Shown one piece after another: positions 42,055 through 57,692 of a stretch of DNA of 64,000 bases. The notes below the pieces were generated by a model. The model was not told the DNA's origin. It worked only from the letters and a program-made list of their open reading frames with translations, and made no database searches. The DNA is from Paracoccaceae bacterium (GTDB lineage: Bacteria > Pseudomonadota > Alphaproteobacteria > Rhodobacterales > Rhodobacteraceae). Position 1 is the first letter of the stretch; each line of letters opens with the position of its first letter. Made by a program: the position numbers and the translations under genes. The stretch is from contig JABURR010000094.1 in assembly GCA_014762635.1 (NCBI GenBank), positions 62,001 to 126,000 of the forward strand, written 5' to 3'.

Positions 42055-42918
42055 TCAGTTGGTTACAGCTTCAATGTAGAAGTCTTCAAGGTGCATTTCC
42101 TTAAGGATCTCGTAGTCGGACACCTTCGCCGGAACGGCCTCGAGGAGGGGAACCTGCTTGAGCAATTCCTGGCCTTCCGGGGTCATGGCCAGGTCCAGGA
42201 ATGCCTGCCGCACGGCCTCTGCAACCTCGCGCGGAACCCGGGGATGCACGGTGATCGGATGCGGTGGCAGCTTGCGGGTTTCGTAGATGATACGCAGCTG
42301 GTCCCGGATCTCGGGGTCGAGCGAGCGGAAGGTGCCCATGACACCCCCTGCCGCCTCGGCTTCTCCCAGGGCAACGTTCAGATAGGCCGAGCTGTGCGTC
42401 GCCACGTAGCGCGGTTTCACGCTGATGTTGTGAATGCGATCCAACTCCGCCCGCATCAGTAGCGATGCACCCAACGCATTCGGGGCGGGAAAGGCGACAC
42501 GCTTTCCGTCGAGGTCCGCGACCGACTGATACGGGCTGTCCTTGTGAACCACCAGCACGCCGAAAAGCTGCCGTGCACCGTCGCGGATCAACGGCTCGTA
42601 GCCCTCCGCCTCGAAGGCAACCAGCGAGTGATAGGGGTTCATATAAGCGAAATCGAACTCGCCATTCGCGAAGGATTGCTCGAAATCGGGAATTCGTGGA
42701 GACCCGACCATGTGAAGTTCGTGCCCGACCCGGCTTTCGATCTCGGCAAGTATCGGCGTCCAGATTGCCGAAAGCTTTCGCGCCTCGAACTGAGGGACGA
42801 CGCCGAACGAATACCCGGCTTCCGCCGCCGAGGGCGTCGGCAGGGCCGCGACAAGTGAAACTGCGCCCCCGAAAAGGAAGCTTCTGCAGGTGGTCAGGAA
42901 GTCGGGACGAACAAACAT
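42055..42918 (-). CDS. PhnD-like periplasmic solute-binding protein
   Basis: 287 residues with a signal peptide (cleavage near PSAAEA). PhnD/phosphonate-type fold: SFGVVPQFEARKLSAIWTPI, FDFAYMNPYHSLVAF, LFGVLVVHKDSPYQSVADLDGKRVAFP. No ABC permease or ATPase is encoded nearby, and the gene is paired with a hybrid histidine kinase 25 bp downstream, so it is probably a sensory co-receptor. The ligand (phosphonate, phosphite, phosphate or other) cannot be told from the sequence. Confidence 0.87.
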   Translation of the reverse strand: MFVRPDFLTTCRSFLFGGAVSLVAALPTPSAAEAGYSFGVVPQFEARKLSAIWTPILAEIESRVGHELHMVGSPRIPDFEQSFANGEFDFAYMNPYHSLVAFEAEGYEPLIRDGARQLFGVLVVHKDSPYQSVADLDGKRVAFPAPNALGASLLMRAELDRIHNISVKPRYVATHSSAYLNVALGEAEAAGGVMGTFRSLDPEIRDQLRIIYETRKLPPHPITVHPRVPREVAEAVRQAFLDLAMTPEGQELLKQVPLLEAVPAKVSDYEILKEMHLEDFYIEAVTN

Positions 42919-42977: not shown

Positions 42978-42993
42978 CTATCCAAAAGTGTAG
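42978..42993. promoter_or_regulatory. 6-4-6 palindrome, copy d (weak)
   Basis: CTATCC-AAAA-GTGTAG, matching CTATCC-N4-GGATAG at 10 of 12 positions, in the divergent promoter between the binding-protein gene (start 42918) and response regulator RR1 (start 43172). It shares the 10-mer CTATCCAAAA with copy c. The rest of 42919-43171 shows no gene. Confidence 0.45.
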
Positions 42994-43171
42994 GATGGCG
43001 AGGCAAAGGGATATCGCCTTCAACGAGCGTTTCCAGATGGGCCAAAAAAGGTACTTTTGATCCATAATCTGCACAGATTTGCATGTATTTTCTGGAACGG
43101 GCGCAAATGCCGTGCCAAAAGGGAAATGAGCGGCCAACACACGCCGCAGGCGAGCGGGACTTATTTCGAGC

Positions 43172-43777
43172 ATGAAGATTCTTGTCGCAGACGATCACGA
43201 CCTTGTACGCGAGACCATCGCTCTCCTGATTGGTCGCGATGAAAACACGACGGTGGTTCAGGCCTCCACACTTGACGAGGCCTTGGCCGAAATCAAATCG
43301 GCCGGAGACATCGACATTACCCTTCTCGACTACGACATGCCGGGCATGAACGGGCTTGAAGGCCTCAAGAGGGCGCTGGAGGCCACCGGCGGACGCCCGG
43401 TGGCGATCATTTCCGGCACCGCGAACAAATCCGTGGCCGACGAGGCGCTCAAGCTTGGCGCGGCGGGGTTCCTGCCCAAGACGATCCCGTCGAAGTCGCT
43501 TCTCAACATCCTCAAGTTCATGGCCATGGGCGAAACCTATGCGCCGCTCGACCTGATGACCGCCGAGGAGGAAGACGATACCTCCAGCGACCTGACCCAG
43601 CGCGAGCGGCAGGTCTTGAAAGGCATCGCCGAAGGCAAGGCCAACAAGGAGATCGCGCGGGATTACGACCTTCAGGAAGTGACCGTGAAGCTCCACGTCA
43701 AGAACGTTTGCCGCAAGCTCTCGGCCAAGAACCGCACCCACGCCGCGATGATCGCCCGGGACCGCAACCTCGTCTGA
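43172..43777 (+). CDS. LuxR/FixJ-type response regulator RR1
   Basis: 201 residues. The receiver has D7, D8, the phospho-acceptor D53 (LLDYDMPGMNG) and the conserved lysine in PKTIP; the C-terminal HTH is LTQRERQVLKGIAEGKANKEIARDYDLQEVTVKLHV. It is about half identical to RR2 (56272-56874) by eye, and both end NRTHAA-x-IARDxxLV. It is divergent from the binding-protein/HK1 operon and probably its output. Copy d of the palindrome lies in its promoter. Confidence 0.93.
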   Translation: MKILVADDHDLVRETIALLIGRDENTTVVQASTLDEALAEIKSAGDIDITLLDYDMPGMNGLEGLKRALEATGGRPVAIISGTANKSVADEALKLGAAGFLPKTIPSKSLLNILKFMAMGETYAPLDLMTAEEEDDTSSDLTQRERQVLKGIAEGKANKEIARDYDLQEVTVKLHVKNVCRKLSAKNRTHAAMIARDRNLV

Positions 43778-43803
43778 GGCTGCGGCGCCCAATGGCGAAA
43801 GGC

Positions 43804-45219
43804 CTAGCGGTTCTCGATCAGCGCGCGCACCATCTCGACCCGGTTGTCCACGATCTCGCGGCTACGGCTGGCCTCGATATTGAGCCGCAGCAGCGGTTCG
43901 GTGCTGGATGAACGCAGGTTGAGGCGCCACTCGGGGAAGCTCATGCTGATCCCGTCGAGGCCGTCCATTTCCACTGCGGCGGCGCCTAGCGCATCGATCA
44001 CCCGGGCCATCGCCGCATCCGGGTTGGCGATCTTGAAGTTGATCTCGCCCGAGGAGGGGAATTTCGCCTGCATCTCGCCCACCAGGGCCGAGAGGGGCTG
44101 CCCGGTGGTCGACATCCGCTCGATCACCTTCAGCCAGGGGATCATGCCGCTGTCGCAATACATGAAATCCGCGAAATAGTGGTGCGCCGACATTTCGCCA
44201 CCATAGATCGCCCCCGCGTCACGCATCATGCGTTTCACATGGGCGTGGCCGGTTTTCGAGACCACGGCCTCGCCACCGAACCGCGCCACGATATCGCGGG
44301 TGTTCCACAGCACGCGCGGGTCATGGACGATGCGCTCACCGGGCGCCTCTTCGAGGAAGGCCGCCGCGAGGAGGCCGACCAAATATTCGCCATCGACGAA
44401 GGCACCGGTCTCGTCGAAGAAGAAACATCGGTCGAAGTCGCCGTCCCACGCAATCCCGAGGTCTGCACCGGTTTCGCGCACCGCGTCAGCCGTCGCCGCC
44501 CGGTTCTCGGGCAACAGAGGGTTCGGGATGCCGTTCGGGAAGGTGCCATCCGGATCGTGCTGGATCCGGTGCACGTCCAGAACCGCACCGGCGGCCTGCA
44601 ACTCTTGCAAAATGGCGTCGAACGCCTGCCCGCCAACACCGTTCCCCGCGTTGACCACCAGCTTCAGCGGGCGGAGTTGGTCGGGTTGGACGAATGATGC
44701 GACCTTGCGCGCGTAGTGCTTGCGCACCGAGACGTGGCTTCGGGTGCCCCGCCGAAGATCGTAGCGGAATTCAAGTCGGTCGGTCAGGAACTCGTGCTTG
44801 ATCGCGTCGAATTCCTCCTGCGTCAGGGGGCGGCTGCCCGGACCCACCATCTTGAAGCCGTTGTAGTCGATCGGGTTGTGCGAGGCCGTCACCTCGATCC
44901 CGCCGCTGGCGCCAAGGTGCGCGGTTGCGAAATAGACCTCTTCGGTGCCCGACAGGCCGATGTCGGCCACGTCCATTCCGATGTCGAGAAGCCCCTCGAT
45001 GAGCGCTTCCTGCATCGCCGGGCTGCTGTCGCGGCAGTCCCGCCCGACCACCACCATTCCGGGCGACATGACCTTGGCATAGGCCCGGCCGATCCGCCAC
45101 GCGGTCTCTTCGTTGAAGTCATTCCCGATCTGGCCGCGAATGTCATAGGCCTTGAAACAGGAGGCCGCGGCGGGGCTGCCCGACGGGCGCCCCGGGTACC
45201 GAAACTCATGCACGCTCAT
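43804..45219 (-). CDS. manB: Phosphomannomutase/phosphoglucomutase
   Basis: 471 residues from ATG 45219 (longer starts rejected). AlgC/ManB architecture: CFKAYDIRGQIG, the phosphoserine loop VTASHNPIDYNG, the metal loop DGDFDRCFFF and the C-terminal RSSSTEPLLRLNIEA. It interconverts mannose-6-phosphate and mannose-1-phosphate, feeding GDP-mannose synthesis by the overlapping manC gene (14 bp shared). It is the last gene of the exopolysaccharide operon. Confidence 0.95.
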   Translation of the reverse strand: MSVHEFRYPGRPSGSPAAASCFKAYDIRGQIGNDFNEETAWRIGRAYAKVMSPGMVVVGRDCRDSSPAMQEALIEGLLDIGMDVADIGLSGTEEVYFATAHLGASGGIEVTASHNPIDYNGFKMVGPGSRPLTQEEFDAIKHEFLTDRLEFRYDLRRGTRSHVSVRKHYARKVASFVQPDQLRPLKLVVNAGNGVGGQAFDAILQELQAAGAVLDVHRIQHDPDGTFPNGIPNPLLPENRAATADAVRETGADLGIAWDGDFDRCFFFDETGAFVDGEYLVGLLAAAFLEEAPGERIVHDPRVLWNTRDIVARFGGEAVVSKTGHAHVKRMMRDAGAIYGGEMSAHHYFADFMYCDSGMIPWLKVIERMSTTGQPLSALVGEMQAKFPSSGEINFKIANPDAAMARVIDALGAAAVEMDGLDGISMSFPEWRLNLRSSSTEPLLRLNIEASRSREIVDNRVEMVRALIENR

Positions 45220-46630
45220 AGATGTCCTCGTACCTGACAATGTCGTCCTCACCAAGGTAACCGCCGGTTTGCACCTCTATCAGACGAAGGGGGAACTTGC
45301 CGGGATTTGCAAGGCGGTGAACTTCTCCCAGCGGGATGTAGACGGACTGGTTTTCACCGACGAGCTTCTCCTCGGAACCAATCGTCACGGTCGCCGTGCC
45401 CTCGACCACGACCCAATGTTCGGCACGGTGCACGTGGCTTTGAAGCGAGAGCTTGCCGCCCGGCTTCACCACGATGGACTTGACCTGGTAGCGCGAGCCC
45501 AGGGCCAATGTTTCGTAATATCCCCAAGGCCGGTGATGGCGGGGGAATTCCTCGGCCTGCGGGGCGCGGGCCAGTTTCAGCGCGGTCACCGCCTCGCCAA
45601 CGTCCTGGGTGGCGTCCAGATCGGTGATCAGAACCGCATCCCGGGTGGCGACGGCCGCGATGTTGCGCAGCCCGATCCCGACCACCTGAACCGAGTCGTC
45701 ATCGGACCGCAGCAGCGTGTCCTTGCAATGCAGCGCGGTGGCAGCACCCGTCAGGCCGACGCCATCGCCATCGCGATCGCTTTCCTGCCAGACCGAGCGC
45801 CAGCTTCCCAGATCGTTCCACCCGGCGGAAACCGGCACGACAGAGCCGATCTCGTGCTCCATGATCGCGTAGTCGATCGAGATATCGGGAGCGTCCACGA
45901 AGCTGTTGGCCAGGCGGAAGAAATCGAGGTCGTGCTTGCCGTCGCGCACGGCGGTTTTGACCGCGGAGCGCAGCTTCGGCGCGTGGCGGGCAAAGGCAGC
46001 GCGAATGGTGCGGACCGAGAACAGGAAGATCCCCGCGTTCCAGACATAGCTGCCCGAGGCGACCATACGCTCGGCGGTTTCCTGATCCGGCTTCTCGGTG
46101 AACTGGACGTAGGTCTGCGCCTCTTCATCCGGGGCTTCCGGATCGGCGAGCTCGATATATCCAAAGCCGGTTTCCGGACCGGTCGGGCGGATGCCGAAGG
46201 TCACGATCTCGCCACCGCGGGCGCGTTCGGCCCCGGCGGCCAGGGCGCGGCCAAAGCTCATCGTGTCGCGGATCAGGTGATCGGAGGGCGCCACCAGGAT
46301 CAGGGCATCCGGATCGTCCTGGGCAATGATCTCGGCCGCGGCGCAGATCGCCGGGGCGGTGTTGCGGCTGACCGGTTCGATGACGATCTTGTGCCCGCGA
46401 GAACCAATCTCGTCCATCTGCTCACCCACGGTGAAGCGATAGTCGTTCGCCGTCATCAGGACCGGGGCAGCGCATCCAATATCCTCCATCCGCCGCACGG
46501 TCGTCTGCAGCAGGCTTTCCTCGCCGGTGAGGCGGGCGAACTGCTTGGGCATGCTCTTGCGGGAGACGGGCCAGAGGCGTTTGCCGCTGCCGCCACACAG
46601 GATAACGGGGCGAATGATACTATTGGACAT
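45206..46630 (-). CDS. manC: Mannose-1-phosphate guanylyltransferase / mannose-6-phosphate isomerase
   Basis: 474 residues from ATG 46630. The nucleotidyltransferase half opens with VILCGGSGKRLWPVSRKSMPKQF. The C-terminal type II isomerase cupin has HRPWGYYETL, QSHVHRAEHWVVVEGTA and GEVHRLANPG. It makes GDP-mannose for the polysaccharide. It overlaps manB by 14 bp and starts 17 bp after the flippase stop, so the three are tightly coupled. Confidence 0.96.
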   Translation of the reverse strand: MSNSIIRPVILCGGSGKRLWPVSRKSMPKQFARLTGEESLLQTTVRRMEDIGCAAPVLMTANDYRFTVGEQMDEIGSRGHKIVIEPVSRNTAPAICAAAEIIAQDDPDALILVAPSDHLIRDTMSFGRALAAGAERARGGEIVTFGIRPTGPETGFGYIELADPEAPDEEAQTYVQFTEKPDQETAERMVASGSYVWNAGIFLFSVRTIRAAFARHAPKLRSAVKTAVRDGKHDLDFFRLANSFVDAPDISIDYAIMEHEIGSVVPVSAGWNDLGSWRSVWQESDRDGDGVGLTGAATALHCKDTLLRSDDDSVQVVGIGLRNIAAVATRDAVLITDLDATQDVGEAVTALKLARAPQAEEFPRHHRPWGYYETLALGSRYQVKSIVVKPGGKLSLQSHVHRAEHWVVVEGTATVTIGSEEKLVGENQSVYIPLGEVHRLANPGKFPLRLIEVQTGGYLGEDDIVRYEDIYERA

Positions 46631-46647
46631 GGCGGGCTCCTTTGATG

Positions 46648-47973
46648 TCACGCGGACGGTGAAGAGATGATTGACGAACGGTCGTCACGAGAGAGGATCC
46701 GGATCAGGCACAGGATCAGAACCAGAGCCGCCAGCGCGAGCTGGCACCCCAACTTGAGCGTCAGAAGGCCCGCCAGCCCCTGCGGGCCTTCTGACGCAAG
46801 CTCCAGGATCACGAAGACCTGGAGGGGGGACGCGATGATCACGGCAAGGATGCCCGAGCGGTCGCCAAGACCGGCAAGGAACGTCGCCGCGAGATAGCTG
46901 AAAGTGAACGCGATCGAGGCCAGACCCGCCATCCACAGATGGGGCGCAGCCGGAAGATAGGAAGCGCCGACGACAAGCCGCAGAAGGGCTTCGGGCGCGA
47001 AGATGGTGGCGGCTCCGAACGGGATGGCAACTGCCAGAAAAAGCCATCCTGCCGGAGCCGCCTGCGCAAGCGGAGAGAAGCCGGTGCGCGAGGTGGAGGC
47101 CACCGCCGGCAGCAGGGCCGCGGCAAGGCCGAAACAGGCGAAGAACTGAATACGCTGAAACAAGGCGAAGGCAGCGACATATCCGGCTTCGGTATCCGAC
47201 AGCAGGAACTGCGCCAGCACCACATCGCCGTCCAGAAGAATGACCTGGGCAACCTGAAGGGCCGCGAAGGGCAGGGCCGCGATGCCGATGGCCCGGGCAA
47301 CCGGCAGCGCGTCCGAGGTCGCGCCCTCAGCGGCGGGCAGTTCATTGCGGATGACGAACCACCCGGCAAAGATCGACAGGGCGATCGCGGCAACCACGCC
47401 TTCAAGGCCAAGGCCCGCATGCCAGGCACCGATGCCCCCGGCAAGGCGAACGCCCATCTCGGCATTGGCCGACAGGATCACGGGGCGCACCGCAAGCTGG
47501 CCGATTACGACCCCGCGCAGAAGGCTCAGCGGTGCGGTGAAGGGAAGCGAGGCGAACAGGATCAGCAAGGCCCATTCGGAGCCAAGCCCAAGATGGCTGT
47601 GCAGGGCGGTGAACAGGAACAGCGCGGCCACGACGGGAAAAAGAGCCAGCAGCGCCACGAAGGCCCGGCTGTTGATCCGCGCGATCTGCGTCAGCAACCC
47701 GGCGTCAGTGCCATCGGCCCGCGCGACAAGGTGGCTGACGGACATCTGAAGCGCGCCGAGAATGCCCAGCAGCGCCAGTTTGATCGTCATCAGGGTTGCA
47801 AGGTCGGCAAAAAGCTCGGGTCCCATCCACCGGCTGAACAGCATGTTGAAAGCCAGATTTCCGGCATTCACCACGTTGGTGGAGAGGAAGATCAGCAGCA
47901 CGGGGCTCGCCAGTGCGGCGGCAAGCCCTGCGGGGCCGATCTTGCCCGGGGAATATGTGTCGACCGATGCCAT
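46648..47973 (-). CDS. Polysaccharide flippase-like membrane protein
   Basis: 441 residues with about twelve hydrophobic segments, resembling the Wzx/MurJ-like polysaccharide-transport group (LSTNVVNAGNLAFNMLFSRWMGPELFADLATLMTI). It probably flips a lipid-linked oligosaccharide across the inner membrane for the exopolysaccharide. One nucleotide separates its start from the upstream glycosyltransferase stop. A perfect 16-bp inverted repeat lies in its 3' coding region (46758-46797). Confidence 0.85.
   Translation of the reverse strand: MASVDTYSPGKIGPAGLAAALASPVLLIFLSTNVVNAGNLAFNMLFSRWMGPELFADLATLMTIKLALLGILGALQMSVSHLVARADGTDAGLLTQIARINSRAFVALLALFPVVAALFLFTALHSHLGLGSEWALLILFASLPFTAPLSLLRGVVIGQLAVRPVILSANAEMGVRLAGGIGAWHAGLGLEGVVAAIALSIFAGWFVIRNELPAAEGATSDALPVARAIGIAALPFAALQVAQVILLDGDVVLAQFLLSDTEAGYVAAFALFQRIQFFACFGLAAALLPAVASTSRTGFSPLAQAAPAGWLFLAVAIPFGAATIFAPEALLRLVVGASYLPAAPHLWMAGLASIAFTFSYLAATFLAGLGDRSGILAVIIASPLQVFVILELASEGPQGLAGLLTLKLGCQLALAALVLILCLIRILSRDDRSSIISSPSA
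46758..46797. repeat. 16-bp perfect inverted repeat inside the flippase gene
   Basis: GCGTCAGAAGGCCCGC (46758-46773) and GCGGGCCTTCTGACGC (46782-46797) with an 8-nt loop. It lies 110-150 bp before the flippase stop. It could affect mRNA stability or expression of the downstream manC-manB genes. Confidence 0.6.
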
Positions 47974-47974
47974 A

Positions 47975-48868
47975 TCAGGCGGTCAGGTAAACGGGTTCGA
48001 GGGAAGCGAAAGCGAGCTCTGCGTCCCCTGCCGTCTGGACGGGGGAGGGAAACCCGCCCAGACGGCTTTGCGCGATCAGGCGCAACATTTGCAGACCACT
48101 CTTTACCACAGCCCTCCCGGAAACCTTGGAGCCAGCAACTTCGCTCCACTCGGCAAGCGGCATCTCGTAGAAGGCACGGGTGCGATCGGACGACCCGTCG
48201 GAGATGCGCGTGAACAACTCGACATCAAAAAGCCAACCCGCGGTGAACGGTTGCGCCAGGGCGCGGCGCAGGTTGGCGGTATTTCTCAGCATCTTCGCGC
48301 CGCACTGGGTGTCGCCGATCGGCAGGCGCACGGCCACGCGGGCCAGCGTCGCGCAGATCCGCGAGATGCAGCGGCGGGCGACGGTCCGCTCGATCCGGTG
48401 GCCGAGCATGACCCGGCGGGAACCGAAGATCACTTCGAGATCCGAGAACCGGTTCGCGACGCGGGCGAAATCGACGATCGCATCAAGCGGGGTGGCCAGG
48501 TCGGCATCCCAGTAGCCCACGTGGCGGACGCGCTTGGTGGTCGCGAAGAGCAGGCCCTGGCGAACGGCCTCGGCCTTGCCCGAGTTCTTCTTCAGGCGCA
48601 GGACGTCGATCCGCTCGGGGCAGACCGCGTGAAGCGTGGAGAGAACCTCGAGGGTGGCATCCTTGCTGCCGTCGTCGACGAAGACCAGGGAGACCTCGGG
48701 GGTCTCGGCCAGGAAGCGCAGGAAGGCTGCGCTGTCGAGCCGCTCGGCTTCGTTGTAGCAGGGCACCACGATGGAAATCTGGGTGCTCCGAGACTGACGT
48801 TCCGCGGGGGACGGAACAAGGCCACGGGGAGGAGTGGCGGGTAGGTCGATCTTGGTCAGAACAGTCAT
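47975..48868 (-). CDS. GT2-family glycosyltransferase
   Basis: 297 residues from ATG 48868, preceded by AGAGGTGC. GT-A fold, dolichyl-phosphate-glucose-synthase-like: SIVVPCYNEAERL, FVDDGSKDAT, GYWDADLATP with the metal motif, and the acceptor block DTQCGAKML. It may make a polyprenyl-phosphate sugar or extend the repeat. Palindrome copy b lies about 140 bp upstream of its start, before the previous gene's stop, so this gene may head its own transcript. Confidence 0.88.
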   Translation of the reverse strand: MTVLTKIDLPATPPRGLVPSPAERQSRSTQISIVVPCYNEAERLDSAAFLRFLAETPEVSLVFVDDGSKDATLEVLSTLHAVCPERIDVLRLKKNSGKAEAVRQGLLFATTKRVRHVGYWDADLATPLDAIVDFARVANRFSDLEVIFGSRRVMLGHRIERTVARRCISRICATLARVAVRLPIGDTQCGAKMLRNTANLRRALAQPFTAGWLFDVELFTRISDGSSDRTRAFYEMPLAEWSEVAGSKVSGRAVVKSGLQMLRLIAQSRLGGFPSPVQTAGDAELAFASLEPVYLTA

Positions 48869-49010
48869 CGGAGCACCTCTTAAAACCTTTCCAACTTTAT
48901 GCTTCATCAGGGCCATTCGAGTCTCAGTGCCCGAGGAATAGGTTTGCGTGTCAGAAGGTTACTGGGCTGGTCGGTGGGGTAGGCGGCACTCGTCTTTGGG
49001 GTGGTGCCGC

Positions 49011-49026
49011 CTATCCTTTCGGATGG
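49011..49026. promoter_or_regulatory. 6-4-6 palindrome, copy b
   Basis: CTATCC-TTTC-GGATGG, 11 of 12 arm positions matching CTATCC-N4-GGATAG. It sits in the gap between the GT stop (49028) and the GT2 start (48868), so it would act on the minus-strand GT2-flippase-manC-manB unit. Confidence 0.55.
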
Positions 49027-49027
49027 G

Positions 49028-50254
49028 TCAGGCGGGGAGGTTTTCGCCGCTCTCGACCGGGGATTCGGTGATTCCCGCCTGCAGGCGCCGGAATTTTTCC
49101 ACGTGGAACTCGATGACCTGCGAGAACGGCATCCCGAGAGACGCGAGTCGGTTGCCTTCAGCGATCTCTGCGGCAAGCTCTCCGTCCCGCAGCAGGCGCG
49201 CGATCGCGGCGGCCATGCCGGGGGCATCGCCCGGGGCATAGTTTTCGCCGGTCAGCCCCTCGTCCTGGCAGAGATCCACGAAATCGCCGATCCGCGGGAA
49301 CACCGGGACGGTGCCATAGCTGGCGGCCTGGTGCAGAACGCCCGAGCTGCCGGTGGTCGAGTTGTAATCGAAGACGCAAAGCCGTGCGTTCCCGAAGAAC
49401 TCGGGGATGTCCTCCTCGGCGACATAGCCGTGGAAGATCACGCCGGGATCATCGCGGCGCGCCTCGGCAACCTCTTTCAGGTAGCCCGGGGTGCTGGGGT
49501 GATCGGTCCCGCCGATGACCAGCTCCAGATCCGGGTTGTCGCCCCCCTCGCGCAGCAGGTCGAAGGCCTCGAGCAGCGTTTCGAGCCGCTTGTAGGTGCC
49601 GAACTTGCCCATGGTCACGATCCGTGCGAGACGATCGGCAAGGGCCGGCATGTCCTGTCGGTCGGTGTCGAAGGTACCATGCGGCACCAGCGTGACGTCG
49701 GCCTTGGGGAAACGCTCCTGCAGCAGATCGGCGTAGCTGCTGAGCGTCACGGTGACATAGCTGGAGGCCATCATCGCGCGGGTCACGACCTCTCCGCCGG
49801 CCTTCACGATGCGCTGCCGGATCGGCTGGCCGCGCAGGATCGTCTTTTCGAGGTCGATCCCGGCCAGGATGTTATGGGCAATAAGCCCGCTCGGGTATCC
49901 CATGGCGCGGGTCAGGGCCGGGGCCAGGAGGCCCAGCGCCGCCGGAATTTCCCGGTCCCCGAAGCTCGCGGTCTGCAGGTTGAACAGGACGCCGTCCGGC
50001 CGCGTGGCCCGGATCGCCTTCAGGATCGCCGGGCCCGCGGTGACGGAGTTGTAGGACCAGACCCGGCGGACCCTGATCTTGGGGTCCAGAACGAATTCCG
50101 GGGCGGGCTCGTCCAGCAGGTCCGCGATGACCGTGACGCTTTCCACGTCGGGTCGGTCCGCGAGGCCACGCGCCAGGTGGTACCCGTATTCATTGAGGCT
50201 CTGCAGTCCCGGGGGGAAGGCGCTGACCAGGGCAATGTGCAGCCGGTTTTCCAT
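49028..50254 (-). CDS. GT1/GT4-family glycosyltransferase
   Basis: 408 residues from ATG 50254 (the long in-frame extension upstream runs through the intergenic region and was rejected). GT-B fold: SAFPPGLQSLNEYGYHLARGL, IVTMGKFGTYKRLETLLEAFD, VFHGYVAEEDIPEFF-type loop and the nucleotide-binding TTGSSGVLHQAASYGTVPVFP. It is cytoplasmic and acts on the lipid-linked repeat. Copy c of the palindrome lies about 210 bp upstream. Confidence 0.88.
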   Translation of the reverse strand: MENRLHIALVSAFPPGLQSLNEYGYHLARGLADRPDVESVTVIADLLDEPAPEFVLDPKIRVRRVWSYNSVTAGPAILKAIRATRPDGVLFNLQTASFGDREIPAALGLLAPALTRAMGYPSGLIAHNILAGIDLEKTILRGQPIRQRIVKAGGEVVTRAMMASSYVTVTLSSYADLLQERFPKADVTLVPHGTFDTDRQDMPALADRLARIVTMGKFGTYKRLETLLEAFDLLREGGDNPDLELVIGGTDHPSTPGYLKEVAEARRDDPGVIFHGYVAEEDIPEFFGNARLCVFDYNSTTGSSGVLHQAASYGTVPVFPRIGDFVDLCQDEGLTGENYAPGDAPGMAAAIARLLRDGELAAEIAEGNRLASLGMPFSQVIEFHVEKFRRLQAGITESPVESGENLPA

Positions 50255-50465
50255 GTTTCGTCTCCTGATATGTGGAGACGCGCCTTGCCCCGGGAAGGCC
50301 GGGTCCATGCTAGGGCAGAGAGCCGGTCGGAACCGCGGGACGACGCGTCCCGCCGTCGAAAATTCCTTGAGGCAATATGCAATTTGCGCCCCCGGGGGTC
50401 GCTTTGGCATTGGGCTAGCCGATGGCGGCTTTCGGACAGGTGCGGACCCGATCGGATACCGCCAC

Positions 50466-50481
50466 CTCACCTTTTGGATAG
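50466..50481. promoter_or_regulatory. 6-4-6 palindrome, copy c (weak)
   Basis: CTCACC-TTTT-GGATAG on the plus strand; on the minus strand CTATCC-AAAA-GGTGAG, 10 of 12 positions matching. It lies in the 239-bp gap between the glycoside hydrolase stop (50494) and the glycosyltransferase start (50254). No gene is seen in that gap. Confidence 0.45.
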
Positions 50482-50493
50482 GTTTCGGCCGCC

Positions 50494-52014
50494 CTAGTTG
50501 GTGGCGCCTTGGGACAACCACGCCTTGAACAGCGTTCGGACTGTTTCAGCAGCGGGCTTTTCCCGGTCCCCATCGGCAAGCAATCCGAAGCCGGACTGCA
50601 GCCCGCGGACCCAAGGGGAGGCGCCGACGACGCTGGCGTCGGGGTCGGCGAAGTCGTGCAGGGTCCAGACAAAGATGCCGTCGGCATCTTGCAGCGCCTC
50701 GATCCGGTCACCCAGGCGCGTCGCCTGCGCGGCCTCGGATCCCGGGAAGCTCGCCGCCACGGACCAGGAGCTTTCGCCGATCTCGGTGACGATCACGCGC
50801 TTGCCACCAGACAATTCACGCACCTCGTCAAGCCGGGCCGCTGCCCCTTCCAGCGGGGCGTAGTCGTGGTAGCTGACCACATCCAGCAGGTCGACCAGGG
50901 TTCCGCCGTGGGAGGCCGCTGACCAGCCGATGGTCAGCGGCAGGTCGGGCGCGTCCTGCCGGATGACCGCAATCATCGTGCGCAACCAGGCTTCAACCGT
51001 GGCCGTGCCATGGGCCGGGTAGTCGAGGTCAGGCTCGTTCTTCAGATCGACCAGAACCACCGAGGGCGAGGCCTGCAAGACCGGCAGCACGGTTTCGAGG
51101 TAGCGCACATCCTCGGCCCAGGTTCCCGGCGCATAGCCGGGGCGGAGGTCAAAGAGGGTCGGGATCGTGTGCAGGCCCAGATCTTCGGCCGAGCGCAGGA
51201 AGGTTTCAAGCTTGGCGATATTCCCGGCGCTGATCTCGGGATCGAGGAAATCCGCGCGGGGGAGGAAGAACCGGACGCTGTTCGCCCCCAGTTCGGCGAT
51301 CTTCTCAAGGTCGGCACGGACAAGGTCCGCATCGAACTCCGGCCAGAAGCCGCGCCAGGGGGTCTCGGCGGGATAGTAGTTTAGCCCGGCCATCTCAGGG
51401 ATGTCCGAACCTGTCAGATCGGTCTGGATCGGGGCCACATCGACCCGTTCATGGCTGAACACCCGCCAGCCCGTGGTTTCGTTCATCAGTGTCGTGACAG
51501 TCCGGTCCTCGCCCATCCCGAAATAGGTTAGGCGATCGCCCTCGGTCGCATAGCGCACCACCAGTGCATCCGACCGCACCTGAAGTACCGAGCCATCCAG
51601 GTGGAACATCTCGGGCCGCGCGGTCTGGCGCAGGATGACCATCTGCGTGCCATCCTCCACGGCCTGCCGGGCGGATATCCCGGCGCGCTGCAGCGCTACG
51701 CCCGAGAAATAGTCGGGCAGGATATCCGTGTGACCGGTGGTCATGGCGCTGGCATGAGCCTGCCACGCCATCGAGATCGCCCGACCGACCCGGTATTCGT
51801 CGTATTCCGTGAAGGGCCGAACCAGGGCGCGCGTGGCCGGTTCCCAGCCAACGCTGGAGAAATGCGGCGCAACCGGGGAAAGCGCATCGCTGAGGTATTG
51901 ATGCAGAACCCGGCGCTCGGTCGCGCTTTCCAATGCGCGCGCTGACACGAAGACCAGAGTCACGAGGATCACCGCGAACAGGGTTACGGTCAGGATCTTG
52001 GCGCGTTTCTTCAT
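50494..52014 (-). CDS. Membrane-anchored glycoside hydrolase, GH5/GH39-like
   Basis: 506 residues with an N-terminal anchor or signal (about 8-25), then roughly 200 residues of unassigned periplasmic domain, then a TIM barrel from about 205. Catalytic glutamates of clan GH-A are visible: the acid/base E327 in VDLKNEP and the nucleophile in VIVTEIGESSW (E411 likely). It resembles PslG, the hydrolase of the Pseudomonas Psl exopolysaccharide system. It probably trims or processes the polymer in the periplasm. It shares 4 bp (ATGA) with the upstream gene. Confidence 0.82.
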   Translation of the reverse strand: MKKRAKILTVTLFAVILVTLVFVSARALESATERRVLHQYLSDALSPVAPHFSSVGWEPATRALVRPFTEYDEYRVGRAISMAWQAHASAMTTGHTDILPDYFSGVALQRAGISARQAVEDGTQMVILRQTARPEMFHLDGSVLQVRSDALVVRYATEGDRLTYFGMGEDRTVTTLMNETTGWRVFSHERVDVAPIQTDLTGSDIPEMAGLNYYPAETPWRGFWPEFDADLVRADLEKIAELGANSVRFFLPRADFLDPEISAGNIAKLETFLRSAEDLGLHTIPTLFDLRPGYAPGTWAEDVRYLETVLPVLQASPSVVLVDLKNEPDLDYPAHGTATVEAWLRTMIAVIRQDAPDLPLTIGWSAASHGGTLVDLLDVVSYHDYAPLEGAAARLDEVRELSGGKRVIVTEIGESSWSVAASFPGSEAAQATRLGDRIEALQDADGIFVWTLHDFADPDASVVGASPWVRGLQSGFGLLADGDREKPAAETVRTLFKAWLSQGATN

Positions 52015-53096
52015 TCTGCGACCTCCACGGTGCGGTCTTCAAGGTCGGCGGCTGTCAGGGCCAGGGTGTTCGTGCCGAGGGGGCTCATCACCTCGAGCCG
52101 GATCGGGAAGTCCCGGGGGCTGATCGGGAACATCGCCGAGATCATCCCGTCCCGCAGCCAGCCGGTATATCCTGCTTCCACGCTCTGTGCGGAAATCACC
52201 GTCAGCTCCACCGGGGCGCCGTCGTTCAACACGTGTCCCATGTCGGTCAGGAACGGGCCGACGGTGATCTCCACCGCGTCGATGTCGGCAAGGGGCATCG
52301 CGGTTGCTTCAAGTTCTCCGCTCTGCCGGACAGGATCGACGCGCAGCGGGTCCGCGCCAGAAGACATGGCGCCCAGAGCAAGGTGAACCGATCCGGCCGG
52401 GGGCATGTCGCGGGTCAGGATCGTCGTCTCGGCCCGCGCGTCGAGAACCGTGGCCGAGGCCAGCCCGTGCATGCCGCCGGGGTGGCTCAGGATGGCTTGC
52501 AGGGCAATACCGTCCTCGACCGGGTTGCCGAACCTGTCCGCAAGCGGGGCCGAGGCGAATTGGTGGAACTGCTCGGTGCGCATCGCCTCGGCTGACGGGG
52601 CCACCACGGGCTGCACCGAGGCAATATCCGACACAACGCGATAGGTGGCGCGATTGGACTGGCGACGGCCCGCGCCGACCCCGGCGTGATAAATCCGCGC
52701 GACCGGGTCGGGCCGGAACAGATGATCGGCAATGCCGGACCGGGTGGTTTCCTCGACCCGCTTCGGCCCAAGGGTGAAATCGCTGCCCGTCCCGTCGGGG
52801 ACAAGGTTTCCAAGGGCATCCAGAACGACCGTCACCGCGTGGGCTTCGTCCTTTCCGGCAACCAGGCTCTTGGGGCCAAGGAAGAAGAGAACCGTTTCGA
52901 CCTCTCCGGGCGCAATCAGGGACGCCTCAGCCTTTTCCGGATCGACCGCTTCGACCAGCCCGGCCCAGGCATCGCGCCCGTCGCGGGCCTCGTCCGTCGG
53001 GAACAGGCCGAAGGCATCCGTGGTGAAGGCGCCCTCGGCCAAGGCCTCATGGGTCATGGAAAGAAGGGCAAAACCGAAGACAAGGATCGGGCGCAT
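52011..53096 (-). CDS. Exported protein of the exopolysaccharide operon, unknown function
   Basis: 361 residues with a signal peptide (cleavage near EALA-EG). The mature part is beta-rich with repeated domain-like segments (KAEASLIAPGEVETVLFFLG, VTVVLDALGNLVPDGTG, and a second half of similar length), suggesting Ig-like folds. It has no cysteine motif or enzyme signature. Overlap with the hydrolase gene and 9-bp spacing to the large membrane-protein gene place it firmly in the operon. It may scaffold synthase or hydrolase components. Confidence 0.75.
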   Translation of the reverse strand: MRPILVFGFALLSMTHEALAEGAFTTDAFGLFPTDEARDGRDAWAGLVEAVDPEKAEASLIAPGEVETVLFFLGPKSLVAGKDEAHAVTVVLDALGNLVPDGTGSDFTLGPKRVEETTRSGIADHLFRPDPVARIYHAGVGAGRRQSNRATYRVVSDIASVQPVVAPSAEAMRTEQFHQFASAPLADRFGNPVEDGIALQAILSHPGGMHGLASATVLDARAETTILTRDMPPAGSVHLALGAMSSGADPLRVDPVRQSGELEATAMPLADIDAVEITVGPFLTDMGHVLNDGAPVELTVISAQSVEAGYTGWLRDGMISAMFPISPRDFPIRLEVMSPLGTNTLALTAADLEDRTVEVAE

Positions 53097-53105
53097 GGGA
53101 CTACC

Positions 53106-56100
53106 TCAGAACAACGGATCATGGGTCATCGACGTCACCAGCAGGCGCATCGAGCGGTACCCGGTCTCGGGATCAAGCGGCAGGGTTCCCGCGTCGGCGC
53201 CGGGCAGGCTCAGATCCGCCTGCATCTGGCTGCCGTTGGTCAGGATCTTTCCGGTGGGGATCTCGGCGATGACCTCGATCTCCTCGCGGGCGGGGAGGGC
53301 CAAAGAGAACGGCGCGCTCTGGCCCGGGTAGAGGTTCGTTTCCACGAACCCGGCCTCGGCCCAAATCGGGCTGCCATCCAGCCCGAACAGCAAAACGTTG
53401 ATCCGCGTGATCGTGGCGGTTTTGGTGCCGGTGTTGACCGCAAGCCCTGTCAGGACCGGGGCGCCGTCGACAAGCTCCGCACGGATCCCGTTCAGGGACA
53501 CGCCGCGATAGAGGTCGCGCCCGGTCACGAGCGCCCGCGCCTCCATCGAGGCGGCATCGGGCGCGGCCTCAAGCTCGGGCGGGATGAACAGTGTCGGGTC
53601 GAATTCGCCCCGGGTCTCGGCGGCTTCCAGCGACAGGACGCCCTCGAAATCCACCCGGAACCCGGCACTTTCGGCCGGCAGCAGGCGCTGGCCATTGACT
53701 CGCCCGGCAGCCTGCCAGGCCAGTGTCTTTTCCGTGCCCTCGAGATTGGCGAAGAGGGTGACGGCGGCAGGGTCCGCATCGGCATTGGTCACCTGGCCCA
53801 GGACGGAGTAGCGACCATCCCGGCGGACTACCCGCGCCCCGTCGATCGCGATCCGGGGGCGATCCAGCCGATCCCGGTGCAGATCCGTATCGGCCCGCGG
53901 CTGGCGACGGCCGACCACGTTCCAAGCTACCTCGCCCTGCCGCTGCAGCCGGACCGGCGTCTGGACCGGGCGAAGCCCCATCGGGACAACGAACCAGTGA
54001 TCCCCGCGCTTTACCGTCCGCAGCACCAGGGTCTCGGTCCGCATGTCCACGGCGGTAAGCCAATGGAGCTTGACCTCCCAATCCCGCAGGGTCGGGCTGG
54101 TCTGGGTCTGCTTGATGTCCATGTCGGCAAGCTTGCCATAGGAGGCCAGCAAGCCGCCCTTCCAGCGCCAGTTGAACATCACCTCTTCGAAATCGCCGCG
54201 GGTTTCGGGGTCGAGCAGGGCATAGGCGCCGTCGAACCGGCGGAAATCGAGATTGTCGAAATAGGCCGCGATGACCTGATCGGGCGCCAGGGGCGTCGCC
54301 GCCTTTCGCATGAGCATCGTGGCAAGGCCAGAGGCAGAGATTACCGTCGCCAAGCCGAGGGCCAGCACGATCAGCCGGACCCGCCGGGGATTGGTAAAGC
54401 CGCCCGGGGCCTCCTGCACTGGTCGAAACTCGGAGAGTTTGGCCCCGAAGTTGCGCCGCAATGCGCTGAGCGCGAAGAGAAGCCCCGCCGACAGAAGCGC
54501 TGCCGGGGGCAGGATGCCCCACATCATCGCATGACTGCGCGGAATCTCGATCCGGGGCTGGAACAGTGGCAGCGGCGAGATATCGGGCTTTTCCCAGACC
54601 ACCACCCCGTTCGAAAGGCGGTTCAGCCGGGTCCAGCCGCTGAAATGCAGAAGCGGATCATAGAAGGCGTCATTGGAAAAGACGTATTTCAAGTGATACC
54701 GCTCGGCATTCTCGATGAACTGCCGCAGAGAGCCTAGGCCCGGAACCCCGAGGTATTTCGCGTTTTCCAGCCGCTCGACCGAAAATCGTGTCATGTCGGG
54801 CAGGCGGCGTGCGGAATGGTAATTCCCGTCAACCGATTGCGCGGTGGTCTGGGCCGAGACATAGGCGAACTGATCCCCGAACCCGAGCGTGAGATAGCGC
54901 CAGCGGTCATGCTCGTCCTCGTCGAGGAAGCGCGCGATGGGCGTCGGGTCGATGAAATCCGGCTGGGTCGGCTGGATCGTGGGAAGGATCGCGGCGAAGA
55001 CGGCGATCCCGGTCATGCCCCCGAAGATGCCGCCCACGATCAGGCGATGCACCCCCTGGCCAAGCGCGCGGCGTACGGCCTCGCCCGAGCGGCCATGCAG
55101 CAGACCGTCGAACATCAACCCCAGGAACGGCAGGATCAGGATCGTCGCCCAGAAGGTGAAGCGGTCCAGCGTCAGGATGTCGAAGGCGCCTCGCAGGATC
55201 GCGCGCGAGATCGGCGTGGTGCCCCCGGTTCCAAGGATGAAGCACAGGATCACCGACAGCCCCAACGGCCAGAGCCGCGTGGTGAAGGTCTTGTAGACGG
55301 CATAGGGCAGGAACAGGATCGCCATGCCCCAGGGCAGGGCGAAGAAGATGAACCCCAGGTCAAGCCGCTCGATGAAGCTTTCGCGGCTGCCGTGGGGGAT
55401 CGGCACCTGGGTAATCGGATCGCTGATCGACCAGTACCAATAGGGGAAAACCGTGATCACGATGGCCGAGAGCATGAAGACCGCCAGGACCAGGCCGCGT
55501 GCGAAGGGCGCGACAAAACGGCGGGCGCGGCGCAGGCGGGATGCGCCGGGCATCGGCGACAGCTCAGCCACTGCGCGCAGGGCCTGAAGCGCCAGCGGAA
55601 TGATGAACAGGACGCCGCCGAAGATCGTCGTGACGTGATGGGCCGCAGTGGTGGCGGCGGCGAAGACCACCGCGGTGACGAAATCCTTGAACTTGCCAAA
55701 GACGATCCAGCGATAAACCGATGGCAGCCCGTTCAGGAAGATCCCCAGCGAGCAGATCGTGGGCAACTGGCCGAACAGGTGAATCGTTTCCGAGATCGAC
55801 GACGACAGCGTCAGCGCCACGGCCGCGTAACCGGCCGCCCGGGGCCGAACCCAGAGCAGCGCGAAGCGATAGACCCCGATCACCAGCAGGATCAGCCCGG
55901 TCATCTGCACCACGATGAACGCCGCCCTGAGCGGCATCACATACATCAGCGCGCCCATGGCCATATGGGTGCCCGGCGGATAGGAGGTCGTCGCGAACCC
56001 GGTGTACCAGCGCGGCTCCCACGGGTCGAACCAGCTCCGGTGATAGTGGTCCCCGAAGAACATGTGGATATAGGCGTCGTAGGTATTGCCGTGGGTGAAC

Positions 56101-56198
56101 GGCAAAAGCCCGCCATGAAACAGGACAGCCGCCGCCAGCGCTACCAGCAGAAGGCGCAGGCCCTGGCTTTCTTCCTGTCGGTCCGTGGCCTGGCTCAT
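53106..56198 (-). CDS. Large membrane protein, PTPS-related/GT-C-like with periplasmic C-terminal domains
   Basis: 1030 residues. The first half has about nine to eleven membrane segments with an early periplasmic acidic/histidine loop (GNTYDAYIHMFFGDHYHRSW) like GT-C transferases. Residues around 450-580 form a soluble stretch, then two more hydrophobic segments near 590 and 650. The C-terminal third is soluble and beta-rich (DKIAA-type YFDNLDFRRFDGAYALLDPETRGDF resembles NTF2-like folds). It is a candidate polymerase or lipid-linked sugar transferase; no Wzy is otherwise seen. It heads the operon. Confidence 0.7.
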   Translation of the reverse strand: MSQATDRQEESQGLRLLLVALAAAVLFHGGLLPFTHGNTYDAYIHMFFGDHYHRSWFDPWEPRWYTGFATTSYPPGTHMAMGALMYVMPLRAAFIVVQMTGLILLVIGVYRFALLWVRPRAAGYAAVALTLSSSISETIHLFGQLPTICSLGIFLNGLPSVYRWIVFGKFKDFVTAVVFAAATTAAHHVTTIFGGVLFIIPLALQALRAVAELSPMPGASRLRRARRFVAPFARGLVLAVFMLSAIVITVFPYWYWSISDPITQVPIPHGSRESFIERLDLGFIFFALPWGMAILFLPYAVYKTFTTRLWPLGLSVILCFILGTGGTTPISRAILRGAFDILTLDRFTFWATILILPFLGLMFDGLLHGRSGEAVRRALGQGVHRLIVGGIFGGMTGIAVFAAILPTIQPTQPDFIDPTPIARFLDEDEHDRWRYLTLGFGDQFAYVSAQTTAQSVDGNYHSARRLPDMTRFSVERLENAKYLGVPGLGSLRQFIENAERYHLKYVFSNDAFYDPLLHFSGWTRLNRLSNGVVVWEKPDISPLPLFQPRIEIPRSHAMMWGILPPAALLSAGLLFALSALRRNFGAKLSEFRPVQEAPGGFTNPRRVRLIVLALGLATVISASGLATMLMRKAATPLAPDQVIAAYFDNLDFRRFDGAYALLDPETRGDFEEVMFNWRWKGGLLASYGKLADMDIKQTQTSPTLRDWEVKLHWLTAVDMRTETLVLRTVKRGDHWFVVPMGLRPVQTPVRLQRQGEVAWNVVGRRQPRADTDLHRDRLDRPRIAIDGARVVRRDGRYSVLGQVTNADADPAAVTLFANLEGTEKTLAWQAAGRVNGQRLLPAESAGFRVDFEGVLSLEAAETRGEFDPTLFIPPELEAAPDAASMEARALVTGRDLYRGVSLNGIRAELVDGAPVLTGLAVNTGTKTATITRINVLLFGLDGSPIWAEAGFVETNLYPGQSAPFSLALPAREEIEVIAEIPTGKILTNGSQMQADLSLPGADAGTLPLDPETGYRSMRLLVTSMTHDPLF

Positions 56199-56222
56199 GA
56201 CTTTCGGCGCCTGTTATTGCGT

Positions 56223-56260
56223 TCGACGATCCGATGCGTCCAGCCGCATCGGATCGTCGA
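56223..56260. terminator. Long perfect hairpin between the operon and RR2
   Basis: A 16-bp perfect stem, TCGACGATCCGATGCG (56223-56238) and CGCATCGGATCGTCGA (56245-56260), with a 6-nt loop. It lies 12 bp after the RR2 stop codon on the minus strand, before the exopolysaccharide operon. No U-tract follows, so it may be a terminator, an attenuator, or an mRNA-stabilising stem. Confidence 0.55.
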
Positions 56261-56271
56261 CCGTCGACAGC

Positions 56272-56874
56272 TCAGACGAGCTTCTTGTCCCGCGCGATGA
56301 TTGCCGCGTGGGTCCGGTTCATGGCGCCGATCTTGCGCCGCATGGAGGTAACATGAAGTTTCACGGTGACCTCCTGGATGCCCAGGTCGCGGGCGATGTC
56401 CTTGTTGGACTGCCCCTTGCAGATGCCGCGCAGCACGTCGCGCTCGCGCGGGGAGAGGATCGAATCCGGATCCTCGGCGGGCTTCTGCATGAAATCCACC
56501 GGCGCGTAGATCTCGCCGGCCGCCATGAATTTCGCCGCGCTTGCCATGGAACGGGAGGCCAGGGTCTTGGGAATGAATCCCGCCGCACCGGCCGCGATCG
56601 CCTTGTCGACGATGGCCCGCGGCACGTCGCCGGACAGGATCGCCACGGGGCGATCCTCGTTGGCCTTCTTCATTCTCAGAAAGCCGTTCAACCCGTCCAT
56701 GTCAGGCATGTTGTAGTCCAGCAGCACCAGGTCATAGCTACCGGATCTCTTGATGTCCGAGATCGCATCGCCGAGACTACTGGCGGTGCGCACCTCTTCT
56801 ATTCCCGATGACTTCAGGAAGGCGGCGATGGTCTCGTGGACCAGCTCGTGATCGTCAGCAACCAGAATTCGCAT
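56272..56874 (-). CDS. LuxR/FixJ-type response regulator RR2
   Basis: 200 residues. Receiver with D7, D8 and D53 (LLDYNMPDMDG); C-terminal HTH LSPRERDVLRGICKGQSNKDIARDLGIQEVTVKLHV. The recognition-helix segment QEVTVKLHV is identical to RR1, so the two may bind the same DNA. It is divergent from the COG3915-like gene and HK2, and only about 70 bp upstream of the exopolysaccharide operon on the same strand, with a hairpin between. Confidence 0.93.
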   Translation of the reverse strand: MRILVADDHELVHETIAAFLKSSGIEEVRTASSLGDAISDIKRSGSYDLVLLDYNMPDMDGLNGFLRMKKANEDRPVAILSGDVPRAIVDKAIAAGAAGFIPKTLASRSMASAAKFMAAGEIYAPVDFMQKPAEDPDSILSPRERDVLRGICKGQSNKDIARDLGIQEVTVKLHVTSMRRKIGAMNRTHAAIIARDKKLV

Positions 56875-57070
56875 TACTCTTACCCTTCAATACTTGAACG
56901 CGTTCAGTTGGTCCTGCGAGGCATCCATCTTTGGTCTAAGGTCAGGTCCCCACCACCGCCGTTGAAACCAACCGTTTTGTAAAAACCTCGCAAAAATAGG
57001 GATATAGAATAATCGATCTGCGGCCAATCAGGCGTAAGTATTGGTGGGATAGTGCAAAAGGAAACGCGAC

Positions 57071-57086
57071 CTATCCCAATGGATAG
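57071..57086. promoter_or_regulatory. 6-4-6 palindrome, copy a (perfect)
   Basis: CTATCC-CAAT-GGATAG, perfect 6-bp arms, in the divergent region between RR2 (start 56874) and the COG3915-like gene (start 57176). It is the best copy of the motif also found at 42978, 49011 and 50466. The 301-bp gap (56875-57175) holds no gene. Confidence 0.6.
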
Positions 57087-57175
57087 AATTCTATTCCTAT
57101 GCATTGATGACCCGGTCCGAGAGGTGTGACACCTTCTGTCCTGTCGCCAGAGACTGACAGCAAAGGTTTCCAGTT

Positions 57176-57688
57176 ATGTGCAAGTATCGAGTTCCAGCGG
57201 CCGTCACGGCCGCGCTGTTTCTCTGGGTCGGAACTGCTTCGGCATCCGACCTTCCCATGCCCGAAGGCGAGGTTGTCCTGACCGTGTCGGGAAACATCGC
57301 CACAGCAAATGACGGAGATCGCGCCCTGTTCGATCTTTCGATGTTGCAGGGCATGGGGGCGACACGAATTTCCACCTCGACCATCTGGACCGACGGGGTG
57401 CAGAGCTTCACCGGCGTGCCCCTGTACATTCTGCTGGAGGAACTGGGCGTGACCGGCGGGACGCTCCGCGCGACGGCAATCAATGACTACACGGTCGAGA
57501 TACCGGTCACCGACGTCGGAGAGACGTTCCCGATCATCGCCTACCTACGCAATAGCGAGGTAATGTCCATCCGGGACAAGGGCCCGCTGTGGATAGTTTA
57601 CCCGTATGACCTGAGCCCGGAATACCGGACCGAAACATCCTATGCGCAGAGCATCTGGCAGCTTGATCGCATCGAAGTGGTGGAGTGA
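57176..57688 (+). CDS. Periplasmic COG3915-like (molybdopterin-oxidoreductase-type fold) protein
   Basis: 170 residues with a signal peptide (cleavage near TASA-SD). The pattern VLTVSGNIATANDG, LSMLQGMGATRISTSTIWTDGVQSFTGVPLYILLEELG and the end RTETSYAQSIWQLDRIEV resembles the small COG3915 group related to the sulfite-oxidase molybdopterin fold, but I see no cofactor cysteine. It is encoded 4 bp before HK2, so it probably acts as a periplasmic sensory partner. The ligand is unknown. Confidence 0.75.
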   Translation: MCKYRVPAAVTAALFLWVGTASASDLPMPEGEVVLTVSGNIATANDGDRALFDLSMLQGMGATRISTSTIWTDGVQSFTGVPLYILLEELGVTGGTLRATAINDYTVEIPVTDVGETFPIIAYLRNSEVMSIRDKGPLWIVYPYDLSPEYRTETSYAQSIWQLDRIEVVE

Positions 57689-57692
57689 CGCC

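Follow-up and report, generated by a model that had tools for sequence, protein, structure and literature searches.

A CTATCC-N4-GGATAG palindrome as the predicted operator of a NarL-type response-regulator family at exopolysaccharide loci of Rhodobacteraceae

Few bacteria have NarL-type regulators with known operators. Regulators of the LuxR/FixJ fold, among them RcsB, VpsT, and CsgD, control exopolysaccharide (EPS) production and biofilm formation. The NarL 7-2-7 operator consists of inverted heptamers, TACCCCTAAAGGGGTA (PMC4549865). In Rubrivivax gelatinosus, the EmbRS and BmfRS systems combine sensor kinases with regulators that carry a receiver (REC) and a LuxR-type helix-turn-helix (HTH) domain, and they control exopolysaccharide and biofilm (PMC3684757). 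NosP/FIST proteins with a hybrid kinase form nitric-oxide systems (PMC12570481, PMC11237717). Here, we analyzed a 64,000-nucleotide stretch (the window; positions 62,001 to 126,000 of contig JABURR010000094.1, assembly GCA_014762635.1) from a Paracoccaceae bacterium, in which the palindrome CTATCC-N4-GGATAG recurs in four gaps of an EPS locus that also encodes two paralogous response regulators (RRs), RR1 and RR2. Our analysis makes it highly probable that this palindrome serves as operator for the NarL-type family to which RR1 and RR2 belong, with a predicted role in autoregulation and EPS control.

A pattern search of the window returned the four copies, a to d (Table 1), at exactly the coordinates and with exactly the mismatch counts that the preliminary description had reported. 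That all four are intergenic was borne out too, given that the first glycosyltransferase gene (GT1) starts at the ATG at ~50254, upstream of which AGGAGACGAAAC provides an AGGAG-type ribosome-binding site. In the block that runs from hybrid kinase 1 to hybrid kinase 2 (40,191-60,272), exactly four gaps exceed 100 bp (253, 111, 239, and 301 bp), and each of them holds one copy. The gap-borne sites thus split the co-directional string of genes into three units: RR2-large membrane protein-hypothetical gene-glycoside hydrolase (GH), GT1 by itself, and GT2-flippase-mannose-1-P guanylyltransferase (GMP)-phosphomannomutase (PMM), the last of which opens at the gap of copy b. Divergent units lie at copy d (RR1 and PhnD-kinase 1) and at copy a (sensor-kinase 2). 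We also observed a 13-nt inverted repeat, GGGTAGGCGGCAC / GTGCCGCCTATCC (48977-48989 / 49004-49016), with a 14-nt loop, that overlaps copy b and in effect supplies an extra GGGTAG half-site ~34 bp from it.

We then followed the palindrome across relatives, using 149 genomes of the same family, one per genus. Presence of the RR family was scored with RR2 as the query (E ≤ 1e-40), and the palindrome was searched as exact CTATMC-N4-GKATAG with the reversed pattern as a control. The RR family was present in 64 of the 149 genera (about two fifths); the named genomes yielded one near match, at 47% identity in Pseudooceanicola (L041), the others being distant. To judge from this Pseudooceanicola match, the sampled family is probably Rhodobacteraceae, broadly defined. 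At least one palindrome occurred in 42 of the 64 RR-positive genomes versus 10 of the 85 RR-negative ones (Fisher p = 6.6e-12), while the reversed pattern treated the two groups alike (p = 0.39). Among the matches listed, an RR-family gene lay no more than 12 kb away from 40 of 75 palindromes, versus 0 of 75 control sites. Furthermore, the 350 bp upstream of RR genes contained a site of at least 11/12 in 35 of 81 cases (reversed control, 1 of 81) and a 12/12 site in 20 cases (reversed control, 0), a count that omits about ten of the lowest-scoring RR genes. Apart from that omission, neither the co-occurrence nor the upstream statistics were selected on the palindrome.

The strict pattern, allowing up to two mismatches, was modestly enriched in the window (5 matches versus 1.4 expected; 3 of 100 shuffles reached 5) and showed no excess in the 3.55-Mb genome (63 versus 81 reversed-control matches). 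It is therefore a poor scanning tool, so a relaxed consensus and a weight matrix were used instead and significance was drawn from the other tests. With at most one mismatch, the strict pattern occurs at three places in the genome, two of them in this locus. For the relaxed consensus derived from relatives, CTAYMC-N4-GKRTAG, the genome-wide count of exact matches was two: copies a and d, both in regulator gaps. At up to one mismatch this consensus gave 21 matches versus 99 for the control. The top-scoring site outside the locus, among those examined in this genome, is CTATACTAAGGTATTG at C37:35429-35444 (L170; 19.1 bits), a possible member of the regulon.

The matrix, 18 bp wide, was built from 34 sites upstream of relatives' RR genes, with the window excluded, and its training sites already resembled the consensus. 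It reads C-T-A-T-(C/A)-C, a W-rich center, and G-(G/T)-A-T-A-G, flanked by C and G, with T at position 4 in 88% and C at position 6 in 100% of sites. In the window, the four copies took ranks 1 to 4, in the order a (22.4 bits), d (21.6), b (20.9), and c (15.1), and the next match scored 10.6 bits. A scan of the RR loci of relatives (1.095 Mb) gave 81 sites of at least 18 bits, versus two for the reversed matrix. The preliminary description had named a similar density of copies inside genes as grounds for abandoning its proposal; we found only 11 of the 81 sites well within called genes, in DNA of which 90.6% is called coding.

The sites are also kept in position where the same EPS locus recurs. 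The 1030-aa membrane protein that marks this locus was found, with the same order of EPS genes, in four of 198 sampled genomes, our own included. In G136 (L239/L240), the top two matrix matches of 39 kb were CTATCCCTTGGCATAG in the GH-GT1 gap (19.8 bits) and CCCTACCAAGGGATAG at the GT1-GT2 junction (14.3 bits), the latter overlapping the 3' end of GT1. The top three in G184 (L241) were ATATCCTTTTGGATAG between GH and GT1 (19.1 bits), a site between RR and sensor (13.6 bits), and one between GT1 and GT2 (12.4 bits). The top match in G182 (L242), whose contig stops before the GT genes, was CTATACTTTAGGATAT between RR and sensor (20.2 bits). The counterparts of copy c (L239, L241) stand at the GH stop or shortly behind it, and those of copy a are syntenic in L241 and L242. 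The gap DNA has otherwise diverged across relatives with this EPS locus, to a column identity of about 50-63%, and the longest fully conserved run in the GT1-GT2 alignment was GGATAG. Rather than being lost in relatives, as the proposal had risked, sites persist in the examined a, b, and c gaps of three other genera; copy d, which has no syntenic counterpart, is supported by its match to the relatives' consensus. The assignment of the palindrome to RR1 and/or RR2, with autoregulation and EPS control, thus draws support from co-occurrence, conservation, and adjacency to EPS genes, all of which, like site positions and rarity, were computed.

Several observations weigh against this assignment. 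The reversed matrix gave two matches in the window, at 17.4 and 15.5 bits, both above copy c, which by itself is weak and within reach of chance; the case for it therefore leans chiefly on positional conservation in relatives. Of 82 RR loci, 34 had no site of at least 16 bits in the fetched stretch, many of them without a SUOX-like neighbor, and several sites adjoin genes of unknown or unrelated function. Lastly, the recognition helix of RR2 reads KLHVTSM where the family has KLHVKTL, placing T at a near-universal K/R position.

This substitution speaks for a narrower form of the same explanation, in which one paralogue alone, RR1 or RR2, uses the sites, while its sister competes or has come to recognize a different operator. 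We consider that form possible though clearly the less probable one, since both the RR1 clade and the RR2 clade of the regulator tree include members with sites in their promoters, and both regulator gaps of the window hold near-perfect copies. The distribution over both clades suggests that site specificity is probably older than the paralogues and that RR1 and RR2 probably read the same sites. RR1 and RR2 also have closely similar DNA-binding domains.

The genes beside the sites bear on whether the RR is the binding protein at all. In relatives, the adjacent genes encode the SUOX-like sensor (28), an RR (26), a Wzc-like GNVR protein (9), a WecG/priming sugar transferase (8), and Wza (4), and further Wzx flippases, pyruvyl transferase, AlgE-type export, HlyD/Alg44-like proteins, and UDPG/GMD-dehydrogenase; full Wza/Wzx-type loci have two to five sites each (at least 16 bits). 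Loci L143-L162 were picked for holding palindromes, so their gene tallies serve as context only. In five loci, a FIST-domain (NosP-like) protein replaces the SUOX-like sensor near the RR and the sites are kept. Three of these FIST genes (L145, L197, L200) lie beside alginate-type (UDPG/GMD dehydrogenase) genes, two also with mannose-1-P guanylyltransferase, and in L145 a hybrid kinase lies between the FIST gene and the RR. Another DNA-binding protein encoded elsewhere could bind the palindrome, with the RR genes merely among its targets, and co-occurrence as such shows linkage, not binding. This is improbable, however: palindromes are enriched in RR-positive genomes (74 versus 44 control sites) and depleted in RR-negative ones (12 versus 42), and because sites persist with FIST in place of the SUOX-like sensor, the RR is the sole factor common to loci with different types of sensor and of EPS. 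The inner CC-N4-GG spacing also fits the NarL-type 7-2-7 site, matching its 16-bp geometry, TACCCC-TAAA-GGGGTA (matrix, 34 relatives' sites).

An RNA hairpin, either a terminator or an attenuator, would likewise have inverted arms around a 4-nt loop, and copy b does overlap a longer inverted repeat. We rejected this very improbable reading: read as plus-strand RNA, 40 of 84 sites have at least one stem pair broken (35 on the other strand), and this lack of rigid stem pairing argues against a hairpin; a T-run is present in just 3 of 84 sites, sites occur in divergent promoter gaps, and no Rfam family was found at them. That a loose palindrome clustered by chance, a reading for which the absent genome-wide excess at up to two mismatches could be cited, is scarcely credible against ranks 1 to 4 by an independent matrix, co-occurrence across the family, and conservation in position.

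If the RR family does use the palindrome as its operator, the system might work as follows. A sensor partner and its hybrid kinase, SUOX-like with kinase 2 and PhnD-like with kinase 1, would phosphorylate the RR, and the phosphorylated RR would bind CTATCC-N4-GGATAG as a dimer of HTH domains. We infer the direct binding, its dependence on phosphorylation, and the sharing of sites by RR1 and RR2, as well as, from gene adjacency, the pairing of kinases with their regulators; control may be by activation or by repression. Each transcription start region would have one site: copy a would serve the RR2-large membrane protein-hypothetical gene-GH unit and the divergent sensor-kinase 2 unit, copy c GT1, copy b the GT2-flippase-GMP-PMM unit, and copy d RR1 and the divergent PhnD-kinase 1 unit. 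The outcome would be feedback on regulators and sensors, with EPS synthesis controlled jointly. A second TATCC-like half-site at +20/21 bp, on the sensor side, is a feature of the family (C at +26 in 83% of 30 sites); lying two helical turns away, it suggests a second dimer that may bind cooperatively.

The proteins of the locus are consistent with these roles. RR1 and RR2 matched PF00072 (E = 4e-21 and 4e-22) and PF00196 (E = 1e-20 and 2e-19) above the curated cut-offs, with a canonical receiver (D7, D8, D53, S81, K103) and an invariant KLH in the recognition helix among 14 aligned members. Both scored below the orthologue models for NarL (NF007935, cut-off 250 bits; RR1 113.7, RR2 94.2) and FixJ (NF006900, cut-off 255 bits; 97.7 and 76.2). 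CsgD was rejected as an identity for either, as NF007505 matches the HTH alone, far under its cut-off. The SUOX-like protein adjoins the RR in most relatives and is the most constant partner of the family; it lacks the cysteine that coordinates the molybdenum cofactor (Moco), no cysteine is conserved among 14 orthologues, and it is possibly a sensor whose cofactor was lost. To judge from its setting, the 1030-aa membrane protein is an uncharacterized, putatively polymer-related protein, and the role of the flippase-like gene is presumptive. On the minus strand at 31123-37902, a gene for a 2259-aa type I polyketide synthase adjoins a double glycosyltransferase and the EPS block.

Table 1. Predicted sites and genes of the EPS locus, with FIST-domain genes of relatives (window positions unless a locus is named)
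Feature	Position	Strand	Sequence	Remarks
Copy a	57071..57086	.	CTATCCCAATGGATAG	12/12; divergent gap RR2 / SUOX-like sensor gene; putative operator
Copy b	49011..49026	.	CTATCCTTTCGGATGG	11/12; between GT1 stop and GT2 start; putative operator
Copy c	50466..50481	.	CTCACCTTTTGGATAG	10/12; between GH stop and GT1 start; putative operator
Copy d	42978..42993	.	CTATCCAAAAGTGTAG	10/12; divergent gap PhnD-like / RR1; putative operator
Degenerate second site	57091..57106	+	CTATTCCTATGCATTG	5.4 bits; 20 bp from copy a, sensor side
GTATCC half-site	50454..50459	-		22 bp from copy c, GT1 side; by eye
GGGATAG half-site	57046..57052	+		RR2 side of copy a; by eye
RR1, NarL/FixJ-type response regulator (REC + GerE HTH)	43172..43777	+		Domain search, alignment
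RR2, paralogous NarL/FixJ-type response regulator	56272..56874	-		53-54% identical to RR1; domain search, alignment
Small exported SUOX-like protein, predicted sensor partner	57176..57688	+		Weak PF00174 match, below cut-off
Hybrid histidine kinase 2 (PAS, HisKA, HATPase, REC, Hpt)	57642..60272	+		
PhnD-like periplasmic binding protein (PF12974)	42055..42918	-		Divergent from RR1
Hybrid histidine kinase 1 (HAMP, HisKA, HATPase, REC)	40191..42029	-		
1030-aa multi-membrane protein, EPS-locus marker	53106..56198	-		No Pfam or NCBIfam match
GH5-like cellulase-fold protein	50494..52014	-		Match below curated cut-off
GT1, family-4-type glycosyltransferase	49028..50254	-		
GT2, family-2 glycosyltransferase	47975..48916	-		
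Flippase-like, GMP, and PMM genes	43804..47973	-		Packed tightly behind GT2
FIST-domain gene	L145:4273-5430			
FIST-domain gene	L193:9474-10673			
FIST-domain gene	L197:1957-3207			
FIST-domain gene	L200:8943-10100			
FIST-domain gene	L228:11101-12453			

In the open-access literature, we found no description of a regulator of the RR1/RR2 type or of the motif, though subscription journals may hold one, and no EPS regulator of this kind for Rhodobacteraceae/Roseobacter; the letters of the motif matched unrelated sequences only. The regulon is apparently new, and its regulator of a known kind. With a 16-bp operator, the EPS regulon could be predicted for dozens of genera from nothing but their sequence. 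Regulator, targets, and sensors would become directly testable, and unannotated EPS loci could be assigned to the regulator. For a family-wide EPS switch, in which one regulator-operator pair is set on alternative sensors (Moco-less SUOX-like, NosP-like FIST, or PhnD-like, each with a hybrid kinase) and on unrelated EPS pathways (Wza/Wzx-type, alginate-type, and this locus), the balance tips slightly in favor. Were it true, polymer production in some lineages would be linked to a redox signal, be it nitric oxide or a different one.

Set beside the known systems, the predicted operator resembles those of NarL and NarP in being a two-fold symmetric site with an A/T-rich center, here predicted for a dimer of GerE-type HTH domains, and in having extra half-sites at some promoters. 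It differs from them in its half-site, CTA[TC][CA]C versus TACCCC: no TACCCCT-like half-site was seen in the matrix consensus, CTATCC/CTATAC. Also unlike NarL/NarP, the predicted targets comprise EPS genes together with the cassette of the regulator itself, and the kinase side is a hybrid histidine kinase with SUOX-like, FIST, or PhnD-like partners. A FIST-domain gene accompanies the RR in the five relatives' loci of Table 1, as in the NosP/FIST systems; unlike those systems, this locus had no FIST gene that we could detect in the window. RcsB, VpsT, and CsgD share the HTH superfamily and the control of EPS and biofilm with the predicted role of RR1 and RR2. EmbRS and BmfRS, from a photosynthetic proteobacterium, likewise join REC and a LuxR-type HTH to sensor kinases; they belong to another bacterial class, with other sensor architectures, and we found no operator described for them in PMC3684757.

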